Below are positions 37,815-52,047 of a stretch of 64,000 bases of DNA, in pieces. Below the pieces are notes generated by a model. It was not told the origin of the DNA. It searched no databases and saw nothing but the letters and a program-made list of their open reading frames with translations. The DNA lies in NCBI GenBank assembly GCA_947501635.1, contig CANMWT010000001.1:62001-126000 (forward strand), in the 5' to 3' direction. Within the stretch, counting starts at the first letter, position 1. The number at the start of each line of letters is the position of its first letter. Source of the DNA: an uncultured Roseobacter sp. (GTDB lineage Bacteria > Pseudomonadota > Alphaproteobacteria > Rhodobacterales > Rhodobacteraceae). Made by a program: the position numbers and the translations under genes.

Positions 37815-38546
37815 GACGCGTTCTTTCTGTTGGATGCGACGGGTCGGTCAAAGGATGCTGCAGCCCCATCAGATGCGGCGCGCAATCGGGTTTTGAGCCT
37901 GGCGTGCACCAGTTTCATGTCCATTCTGTCACGCTATGCGGTTTACCGTGTGGGCGCCAGCTTCGGCGTCTCAGACCACCTGCGACAAAGGCCGTCCACT
38001 GAGCATTTTTCCGAAACAATTGTCTTTTGGGTACCATGCTGTCTCGTCCATCGAAACTAAGAAGTTGTTCGTAAAAAAGGAACAATTAAGCACAAAGAAA
38101 ATTATTGCTTACAATAGTAACGTAATTCCGCGCTGGATTGTGCCTTATGTCACTTTTTTAGCGACAATAGGCTTAATAAAAAATTATTGTTTGCGGCGTA
38201 TTGTTACCTGTCAAAACCGTTTTGTTTCCCGAAATCAAATTGCGATTTACTCTTCCGGAAGTAAGAAATTGGACAGAATTACATCTACCGCAACTTTTAT
38301 GATCATAGCATTTTACGGTGCCATTTTTATGACTGCTTATGTTGAGACGCATTGTAACATGGGCCACTGCCCATGGAGCCCGGAACAAGGGCCGCGCGAT
38401 GGCGGGTCTCACTCAATCGGCGAGGTCGACAAAAGCCGACCCACCACGCAAGCCTGATCGGCGCATCGTAACAAATGAGGACAATCTCAGAGACATCCGC
38501 GCCAGCGGCCGACTTTGTCGCAGCAAAACCAGAGTAGTGTTGGGGA
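37815..38546. other. AT-rich region without convincing gene
   Basis: From about 38045 to 38345 this region is clearly poorer in G+C than its neighbours, with many A/T runs. Only weak reading frames exist (up to 173 codons on the plus strand at 37936-38457), none with a ribosome site or recognisable sequence. A small inverted repeat TTGTTC/GAACAA lies near 38070. It borders the tRNA-derived repeat at 38547 and may be older foreign DNA, while its left end carries the ackA promoter. Confidence 0.55.
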
Positions 38547-38563
38547 TTGGTGCCCAGGAGAGG
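38547..38563. repeat. Attachment-site copy (partial tRNA-Leu 3' end)
   Basis: TTGGTGCCCAGGAGAGG, identical to 39539-39555. It is the complement of the last 16 nt of the tRNA including CCA plus one flanking base; identity stops at both sides. Confidence 0.75.
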
Positions 38564-38631
38564 TTTCAGAACAAGCAAAAGCCTTAAAATTATTTATTTA
38601 TTTACAATTAGTTACGGTTTATGCTTGATTT

Positions 38632-39261
38632 CTATGTTGCGGGAATGGTTGCGGGAATGGTTGCGGGAATGGTTGGTGGCCACTCAACGTCTCGCAAATA
38701 GTCTGAATGCGAAAGCAAGGTCTTGTGGACGCGATAAACCGGTTCTGGCAACTGAACGATAGCCACCTCTATTCCAGCTTTACGCGCTTCCTTCATTGCC
38801 GGGATCATGTCTGTATCGCCGCTTACAAGAATTATTCTGTCTACAGATTTCTTCGCCGAGATTAGGGCGATGTCCAAACCAATTCTCATATCGACGCCCT
38901 TCTGTTCAAAGATGGGCGAGAAATCACTGTCTTTTAAATCGCGCCCTGAAATTGGCACTCGCTTTGGTTTCCAACCTCGGAAACCCAAAGTTCCCCGCCG
39001 AACGGCGAACTTTTCTCTTCGCGACACATCCTCCAACCAAGCATCGTTTGCAGAGAATGATGTGTTGTCACCCGAAACAGGGAGCTTCACTGTGCCCCGA
39101 AATTGAGGGGAGTCGTAGTAGTAGGTGCGCACCAAATACTCGTCCGCAAGGATACAACCTTTCGCGAATTGTTCGATGAAGTCTGGGTTGTATTCAAAGG
39201 TGGAATGCGCGCGGGCCGTCGCGCGAAGGTATCCACCATCTATGAGCAAGAAGCATTTCAT
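38632..39261 (-). CDS. NYN-domain (LabA/DUF88-type) putative nuclease
   Basis: The 209-residue product has a complete NYN/PIN-like fold: the first acidic residue in KCFLLIDGGYLRATARAH, the middle conserved Asp in VDMRIGLDIALISAKKS, and the third acidic cluster in ILVSGDTDMIPAMKEARKAG. NYN proteins are metal-dependent RNases or nucleases, some in defence or RNA turnover. The ATG at 39261 is preferred because homology begins there; the region before it holds a 30-bp palindrome. The C terminus ends in three TIPA repeats. It is the only gene between the tRNA-derived direct repeats. Target and biological role are unknown. Confidence 0.85.
   Translation of the reverse strand: MKCFLLIDGGYLRATARAHSTFEYNPDFIEQFAKGCILADEYLVRTYYYDSPQFRGTVKLPVSGDNTSFSANDAWLEDVSRREKFAVRRGTLGFRGWKPKRVPISGRDLKDSDFSPIFEQKGVDMRIGLDIALISAKKSVDRIILVSGDTDMIPAMKEARKAGIEVAIVQLPEPVYRVHKTLLSHSDYLRDVEWPPTIPATIPATIPAT
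38638..38673. repeat. Three tandem 12-bp repeats at the 3' end of the NYN gene
   Basis: TGCGGGAATGGT occurs three times in a row. On the coding strand this gives T-I-P-A units and is in frame, so the number of copies can change the protein tail without frameshift. Confidence 0.9.
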
Positions 39262-39277
39262 CGCGCCATAATATAAA

Positions 39278-39307
39278 GAGCCTTCGATGTTGCAACATCG
39301 AAGGCTC
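39278..39307. repeat. Perfect 30-bp palindrome before NYN gene
   Basis: GAGCCTTCGATGTTG is followed directly by its exact reverse complement. The palindrome ends 16 nt before the NYN start codon. In the NYN orientation it is followed by a T-rich stretch (CTTTATATTAT). It can be an operator, a leader RNA hairpin, or a terminator for upstream transcription from the tRNA. Confidence 0.9.
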
Positions 39308-39538
39308 AAAAGATTGTCGCCCCGAAAATCGAAGCGTCAGGATTATGAGGCAAATGTAGGTTGTAAAACTTGACAAGTCAATAACGCTACATCCTGACCA
39401 TGGACCTGTTGCAGCGGCTCAACAGTTCCGGATAATCGCGGTAAACAATCGCGAAGTGTTGCGGGTTTTGGTGCTTTTTCGGCTTCGGGAATCGAACCTG
39501 AAAAATCTTCTTCGATAAAATCAATTACTTAGAAAAAT

Positions 39539-39555
39539 TTGGTGCCCAGGAGAGG
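39539..39555. repeat. Attachment-site copy at the tRNA-Leu 3' end
   Basis: TTGGTGCCCAGGAGAGG, the copy inside the intact tRNA-Leu gene, identical to 38547-38563. Confidence 0.75.
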
Positions 39556-39625
39556 ACTCGAACCTCCACGTCCATACGGACACTAGCACCTGAAGCTAGC
39601 GCGTCTACCATTCCGCCACCTGGGC
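39540..39625 (-). tRNA. tRNA-Leu (anticodon CAG)
   Basis: On the minus strand the gene is 86 nt including an encoded CCA. It has a GCCCAGG acceptor strand pairing with CCTGGGC, the D arm TGGCGGAATGGTAGACGC, an anticodon loop with CAG (CTAGCTTCAGGTGCTAG), a long variable arm (TGTCCGTATGGACG) and T arm GGTTCGAGTCC. The variable arm and near identity to known tRNA-Leu(CAG) establish the type. Its 3' end is used as an insertion site. Confidence 0.95.
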
Positions 39626-39785
39626 CGGTGTCGTGGAGCAGGCATGTACGCGCAACCTTTCGGCCTGTCAAACGGAAATTCACCTGCCCCAGAGGTGATC
39701 CGTGATCCCCTGCGCCTATTTGCGCCTTGTCTCGCAACGGGGGGGGCGATACATCATCGGCAGGGCGCGACAAAAGAGGCAAGCG

Positions 39786-51991: not shown

Positions 51992-52047
51992 GATCGACAG
52001 GCGCGTCTTTCTTCCGTTAAACGGTTTTGAGAGAAGGAGAACGGCGG

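Follow-up and report, generated by a model that had tools for sequence, protein, structure and literature searches.

Cis-mobilizable elements (CIMEs) are, in the terms in which PMC5704250 introduces them, elements that have kept their att sites and lost their integration genes. Measured against that description, a short island behind a tRNA-Leu(CAG) gene of an uncultured Roseobacter sp. shares with CIMEs the att copies at both ends, the lack of an integrase and the presence of tandem islands at one target. It differs from the elements characterised there in its length of 975 bp, in its single gene and in having related ends with two different cargo genes; its ends are shared with temperate phages, and a derivation from an ICE or IME would be putative. 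Phage satellites (StCI and others), as summarised in PMC13376191, are 7-20 kb long and carry integrase, regulatory and replication genes. Flanking att sites, defence-type cargo and a suggested phage dependence are traits in common with the satellites of that summary (PMC13376191), from which the island is set apart by its size and by a content of one gene without integrase or regulators.

Two prophages of the same genus, in genomes G215 and G201, resemble the island in having ATTCCCGCAAC-type repeats at either end and an att core that lies within the 3' end of a tRNA gene; unlike it, they carry an integrase, together with the main phage genes that were scanned for in G215 and similar ORFs in G201. 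The leader, terminator and NYN gene of the island recur as the same unit in IS1-family transposons (loci L010, L011, L016, L022, L024 and L058), which unlike the island have a DDE transposase, inverted repeats and 8-bp target duplications. A type III toxin-antitoxin system of the ToxIN type consists of a promoter, a small structured RNA, a terminator and a nuclease-type gene. The NYN unit has the same order, with the terminator between the RNA and the nuclease gene, but its leader is a single RNA unit rather than tandem repeats and its protein belongs to a different family; no ToxN-type fold occurs among the structural matches listed for it. Among the matches listed in searches of the literature on IS1 passengers, NYN proteins and toxin-antitoxin systems, satellites, SoFic and DUF6538, no description of this element was found.

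A probable integration footprint behind tRNA-Leu(CAG)

The window, which is the whole stretch of 64,000 nucleotides analysed, contains a tRNA-Leu(CAG) gene whose 3' end, TTGGTGCCCAGGAGAGG, is present a second time 992 bp away (Table 1). An earlier note on this DNA had reported this perfect 17-bp repeat and had taken it for the footprint of site-specific integration. The two copies are indeed exact, and the copy at the tRNA consists of the 3' end of the gene plus one base. A given 17-mer is expected to recur by chance within 2 kb with a probability of about 1e-7 under a uniform model; in shuffles of the whole window, the mean number of matches with up to three mismatches was 0.25, and two or more matches were seen in 2 of 100 shuffles. 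When the tRNA-Leu loci of 18 genus-mates were used as a control, an exact repeat of at least 12 nt of the tRNA 3' end was present only in G200 (13 bp); the downstream DNA of this control amounted to 121 bp, 708 bp and 4.5 kb at single loci and to about 7 kb at the other 15, so that it is blind to more distant att copies, such as those of G215. The att copies, the arm-like repeats at both ends and the G200 island together give the integration reading good support.

Table 1 Features of the island and its tRNA target (coordinates of the window)
Feature	Position	Strand	Basis
Distal att copy, 17/17 bp identical	38547..38563	-	17-bp repeat TTGGTGCCCAGGAGAGG
Island body, 975 bp, 46.6% GC vs 56.6% for the window	38564..39538		composition
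Distal end common to the window and G200 islands, 64 columns, 77% identity, E 5e-5	38595..38656	-	alignment
Predicted NYN-domain nuclease, 209 aa, last residues from the arm-like repeats	38632..39261	-	ORF, PF01936
Three 12-bp ATTCCCGCAAC arm-like repeats, encoding in frame the NYN tail PATIPATIPAT	38636..38675	-	direct repeats
Leader RNA, two hairpins	39268..39347	-	-33.2 kcal/mol, z -6.9; covariation; R2 model, 66.6 bits (window sequence itself included in the model)
30-bp perfect palindrome, terminator hairpin with T-rich tail, located 16 nt upstream of the start codon	39278..39307	-	sequence
Leader hairpin 1	39318..39336	-	folding, covariation
Promoter-like TTGACT-17-TACATT	39353..39381	-	pattern; weak alone
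tRNA-proximal end common to the window and G200 islands, 89 bp, 82% identity, E about 1e-19	39450..39538	-	alignment
Arm-like core CCCGCAAC, tRNA-proximal	39458..39465	-	repeat search
att copy in the tRNA 3' end	39539..39555	-	17-bp repeat TTGGTGCCCAGGAGAGG
tRNA-Leu(CAG), target gene	39540..39625	-	ARAGORN; Rfam tRNA 55.4 bits

The ORFs of at least 80 aa in the island body are the NYN gene and two antisense ones of 127 and 99 aa; of these three, the domain scan covered the NYN gene. The ORF list and the PF01936 match thus bear out the description of the unit between the copies as one complete NYN-domain gene without an integrase. ATTCCCGCAAC-type repeats with a 12-bp period are present at both ends of the island, three of them adjoining the distal att copy, and their position and repetition suggest that they are integrase-arm-like sites. 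In the tRNA-proximal array, a second unit is present in G200 and degenerate in the window. Between ackA and the distal att copy (37815-38546), the DNA is partly AT-rich and its longest ORF has no Pfam match; this part is perhaps the debris of an older island.

The tRNA-Leu locus within the genus

The genus set consists of 19 genomes including that of the window, with one genome per species, and strain variation is therefore invisible to it. The tRNA-Leu gene and the gene on its other side are kept in all 18 genus-mates. The DNA past the tRNA 3' end is variable (up to 300 bp of the 19 loci compared, E 1e-5): G209 resembles G199 and G202, G211 resembles G198, G200 resembles the window, and there is no further pair. 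An integrase-family domain lies downstream of the tRNA in 5 of the 18 (G206, G207, G208, G212 and G215), a count for which five candidates were scanned. The NYN gene is found in the window's genome and in none of the genus-mates. The backbone of the window is kept only in G204, where it resumes 1.8 kb past the tRNA, as compared with 4.1 kb in the window, and no significant match to the 734 bp past the distal att copy occurs in the DNA compared from downstream of the tRNA in the 18 genus-mates. An empty site with a single 17-bp copy, which the earlier note had named as support for mobility, was not found in that DNA either. The outcomes that it had named as speaking against mobility were an invariant gene order in distant relatives and close relatives that keep the NYN gene but lack the 17-bp copy. 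Neither was seen: the flank varies among the 18 genus-mates, and none of them has the gene.

In G213 (locus L121), a 138-bp direct repeat with 86% identity, made up of 27 bp of the tRNA end and a further 111 bp, lies directly behind tRNA-Leu and a second time about 2.0 kb away, with small ORFs between the copies. This is perhaps another integrase-less island at tRNA-Leu.

A sister cassette in G200

In G200, the tRNA-Leu gene is followed by a 1.6-kb island in the order of repeats, one Fic gene, repeats and an att-like copy (13 bp exact). PADLOC assigns the cargo to SoFic (1.5e-101), and SoFic is a tested single-gene defence system. Apart from the two ends listed in Table 1 and a shorter overlapping match in the repeats, the window and G200 islands have no match at E 0.01: their ends are related, and the gene between them differs, NYN in one and SoFic in the other. 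Other cargo at the same tRNA-Leu locus had been put forward as a test of mobility, and G200 provides it between related ends. When the tRNA-proximal end was searched against 394 family genomes, 12 weak matches were obtained besides the window, and the 11 of them that were examined have no tRNA nearby and no repeat pair. In all, two cassettes of this kind were found, those of the window and G200.

Arm-like repeats at the ends of prophages

With up to one mismatch, CCCGCAACNNTTCCCGCAAC has eight matches in four of the 19 genus genomes, as compared with none for the reversed control, and all eight lie at the termini of elements that have att or att-like copies on both sides. The pattern is present at both ends of the G200 island, of a prophage in G215 and of a prophage-like element in G201; the two matches in the window overlap within the distal array. 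The G215 prophage is 38 kb long and is inserted at tRNA-Leu, with 18-bp att copies at 52012 and 90194. The G201 element is 39 kb long and is inserted at tRNA-Phe, with 18-bp att copies at 64498 and 103881. Six proteins of G215 scanned besides the integrase are a terminase, a portal, a head, a tape-measure and a tail protein and an endolysin, and the G201 element is judged to be a prophage by ORFs similar to those of G215. The G215 integrase is a DUF6538 protein that matches a PHROG integrase (1.2e-17) and stays just under the Pfam cut-off for Phage_integrase (26.0 vs 27.1 bits). The integrases of G215 and G201 are 87% identical despite their different targets, tRNA-Leu and tRNA-Phe. Between the window and G200 islands and the two prophages, the repeats align, as does a 16-bp core in the case of G215, and the rest is at chance level.

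An exact search of 394 family genomes with a slightly different pattern gave 7 genomes (12 places), as compared with 4 genomes (4 places) for the control. A tRNA gene is close to the pattern in four of the seven: the window's genome, G215, and G075 and G273, both at tRNA-Gln. The matches in G287, G395 and G166 have no close tRNA and are probably background.

Integration in trans or a trimmed remnant

On a modest balance of probability, the island of the window is an integrative cassette that carries a single gene, is non-autonomous and depends on a phage integrase acting in trans. Both ends of such a cassette would hold att cores and arm-type binding sites for a phage-type tyrosine integrase with DUF6538, and a 38-39-kb temperate phage of the same genus would supply this enzyme in trans. 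The enzyme would insert a circular form of the cassette at the 3' end of tRNA-Leu(CAG), where the 17 bp brought in would leave the tRNA intact and the old tRNA end would be displaced to the far side. The cargo would be one self-contained expression unit of a promoter, a terminated two-hairpin leader RNA and an NYN nuclease. From these comparisons we infer that the repeats bind the integrase, that integration was in trans and that the cargo serves in anti-phage defence or as an addiction-type gene. Integration in trans is supported by the core and arm-like repeats at both ends, by the different single genes between related ends, by the repeat motif in common with two prophages and by the variable flank of the tRNA. 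It is weakened because neither an exact empty site in the genus-mates nor a close helper integrase in the two genomes was found, because the cassettes found number only two, and because the tRNA-side arm array is partly degenerate and the att copy of G200 is imperfect.

The serious rival is the explanation that an integrase-bearing prophage or island was trimmed to its ends and one cargo gene, in the manner of a CIME; the SoFic cassette of G200 would then have arisen by an independent deletion in a related element. The probability of this explanation is substantial, though clearly below even. The best match to a helper integrase in the window's genome has 25% identity, and none was found in G200 at E 1e-10; the degenerate arm unit of the window and the 13-bp att copy of G200 fit such decay as well, and the description in PMC5704250 has CIMEs losing their integration genes while keeping their att sites. 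However, both cassettes, about 1 kb and 1.6 kb long, have retained a single gene between recognisable ends. Moreover, these ends are alike beyond the repeats (82% over 89 bp), whereas the prophages share with them essentially the repeats and, in G215, the att core.

The NYN protein and its carriers

The NYN protein matches PF01936 with E=1.5e-9 and 39 bits against a gathering score of 24.2. Its acidic residues are conserved, D8 in 81 of 81 sequences and D124, D130, D149 and D151 in 80 of 80. A Foldseek search of the PDB gave no meaningful ranking; VIA-align gave one, in which the structural matches are the MARF1 NYN domain (6fdl/5yaa) and VPA0982 (2qip) at 11-20% identity, in agreement with an NYN fold. 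The MARF1 NYN domain has RNase activity. In PADLOC, the protein matches a LabA-like NYN model (9.5e-10) and, weakly, HEC-09 (2.8e-4). Residues 202-209 fall below pLDDT 50 in the AlphaFold model, and the tail is thus predicted to be disordered. The PATIPATIPAT tail is found in none of the C-terminal ends of 80 relatives, many of which stop at or near a conserved WP motif.

Genome contigs of 84,980 species yielded 122 relatives, of which the best 80, with 48-64% identity, were kept; their records are labelled Alphaproteobacteria, Acidobacteria and others, and many are metagenome bins. The nearest among the matches listed (60-64%) come from records labelled Parvularculaceae, Sphingomonadaceae, Kiloniellaceae, Rhizobiales and so on. 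Beyond the genome contigs, seven relatives are in viral contigs, and more remote ones are in 15 phage and 170 plasmid records. Within the family, matches come from 8 of 198 genomes: one is the window's own protein, and the other seven are remote (38-51% identity, over parts). The suggestion of the earlier note that the NYN gene might lie beside tRNA 3' ends elsewhere holds as a weak enrichment (4 of 80 vs 8 of 785 other ORFs, p=0.019), but no convincing att copy goes with it: no repeat of the host tRNA at L023, L044, L060 or L079 is convincing, L060 having two 12-bp matches 1.8 and 4.0 kb on. In L029, L031, L035, L045 and L049, from several Hyphomicrobiales, the NYN gene appears by eye to lie between rpsP- and rimM-like genes, a fixed position that suggests vertical keeping.

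In 7 of the 80 loci, a transposase of one family is located about 1 kb upstream of the NYN gene. The three transposases scanned match PF03400 (IS1) above its cut-off, and in three the IS1 model of NCBIfam is the best match but stays below its own. Six of the seven loci (those named in the opening comparison) hold complete transposons, 2.4-4.0 kb in length and bounded by inverted repeats; the right repeat overlaps or just follows the NYN stop codon, and all six transposons are flanked by perfect 8-bp target duplications. Further cargo is variable; in L010 it includes HigB-like and HTH/M78 genes. Within the order of G412 (61 genomes), such a transposase is present in seven genomes, at eight places, one of them a fragment. 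Three of the seven full transposases are followed by NYN, two of these being L016 and L011 again. Behind a fourth lies an Abi_2/PD-T4-5-like gene (PADLOC 1.7e-7; Pfam 22.3 bits, short of the cut-off of 25.6), behind a fifth an unknown ORF, and behind a sixth nothing but the inverted repeat; no repeat was recognised at the seventh, L302.

Some smaller features accompany these transposases. In three of the seven loci (L024:6747-6835, L033:6751-6822 and L058:939-1014), a tRNA-like sequence with an odd anticodon arm closely precedes the transposase, and in L016 a stretch at this place looks by eye like a tRNA-type 3' end. A small ORF with a GGKKGGKARA-type motif is located near the left inverted repeat in L010 (4690-4914) and, in similar form, in L011, L016 and L058; Pfam gave no match for it in L010 or L016, nor did NCBIfam for the ORF of L010.

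These carriers raise the question of whether the window's island is itself the remnant of an IS1-family transposon, its tRNA-end repeat being a coincidence. The near relatives L010, L011 and L016 (61% identity) are passengers of complete transposons, with their stop codons overlapping the right inverted repeat or a few bases before it, and the homology of the window's protein to its relatives ends at the same WP residues. Nevertheless, such an origin is improbable. Beside the window's NYN gene there is no transposase and no such inverted repeat within five mismatches; the lone match with five mismatches is on the other side of the tRNA, at a distance of 662 bp from the start codon. The ends that the island has in common with the cassette of G200 are, moreover, situated outside the NYN unit. 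A chance repeat beside an ordinary chromosomal gene, for which the short length of the repeat is the only argument, has a negligible probability in view of the figure for the 17-mer, the repeats at both ends and the lack of NYN in 18 genus-mates, and is in our judgement refuted by the sister cassette.

The leader RNA

A leader RNA precedes the NYN gene in 75 of 81 loci (80 relatives and the window). A first, GTAGGCG-type leader is found in 63 of them, and a second type in the window and L009-L019, with a weak score in L018 (23.6 bits); the leader is weak or absent in L044, L057, L059, L060, L080 and L084. In both types, a first hairpin is succeeded by a terminator hairpin that lies immediately ahead of the start codon. 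The 30-bp palindrome that the earlier note had described before the gene is real, but it is the terminator of this gene-linked leader and not a feature of the island. Promoter-like sites number 2 in 38500-39700, as compared with 1.1 expected in shuffles, and by eye a promoter-like stretch is at the same place in many relatives.

In the second type (the window and 10 others), 12 of 16 pairs are changed on both sides and 90.3% of cells are paired, and none of 500 shuffles was as good on any measure. In hairpin 1 of the first type (60 sequences), 99.3% of cells are paired and 20 cells are changed on both sides, again matched by none of 500 shuffles; only two of its five pairs vary, and that number of pairs is reached in 211 of 500 shuffles. 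A pseudoknot of UAC with GUA was dropped, because these columns hardly vary. In an independent test, the leader lies directly upstream of NYN in all seven viral loci outside the models (six R1, one R2). Rfam has no match for the window's leader up to E 5, and for L035 only SNORA70, far below the cut-off.

The first-type hairpin, with a UAGG loop, also occurs without NYN; the leader of the window is of the second type. Two hairpin patterns were found in viral contigs at 24 and 17 places, 21 and 14 of which have complementary stems, with NYN in the locus at 6 and 0 of these, respectively. Among the complementary places of the first set without NYN, a same-strand tRNA gene is within 130 nt in 6 of 15; for the second set, ARAGORN places a tRNA no more than 400 bases away at 1 of 17 places. 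An AUCCG-N-UA hairpin with a UAGG loop adjoins same-strand tRNA genes in the viral contigs L231, L236, L239, L240, L245 and L246. By eye, many of the 15 complementary places of the first set without NYN are followed by a terminator-like hairpin. In named phages, the leader element is almost absent (1 and 3 weak records). The models gave 14 strong matches in 13 of 15 whole genomes with NYN loci, and NYN adjoins 13 of the 14. The other one, L224:1501-1567, lies before a small gene in a region that looks prophage-like by eye, with no NYN in the locus. The reading of leader and NYN as a type III toxin-antitoxin system is weakened because the leader hairpin occurs without NYN, in L224 and in the viral contigs. 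The leader may act in attenuation by the nuclease itself or in a phage-type terminator control, both of which are guesses. Because a related leader type recurs in viral contigs without NYN, expression of NYN may, on a tentative reading, answer to phage infection.

Implications

The NYN unit is present on two unrelated kinds of mobile DNA, in slots that also hold SoFic and an Abi-like gene, and this makes NYN a defence candidate. A defence or addiction role is favoured, by association only, because its slot also holds defence-type genes in the two unrelated carriers. Its leader adds a covarying RNA without an Rfam match. Tentatively, and with more doubt than conviction, the two islands may represent a class of cassettes, about 1-2 kb long and without an integrase, that each carry a single anti-phage gene (SoFic, NYN) between the core and arm sites of a phage integrase and enter tRNA genes in trans; such cassettes would be the att-site counterpart of the integron cassette, with a phage as the integrase donor. 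If these cassettes do move, a single defence gene could do without its own island, satellite or transposon, and two short ends recognised by a phage integrase would suffice. This would help to explain lone defence genes behind tRNA genes and would give a concrete end sequence with which to search for them.
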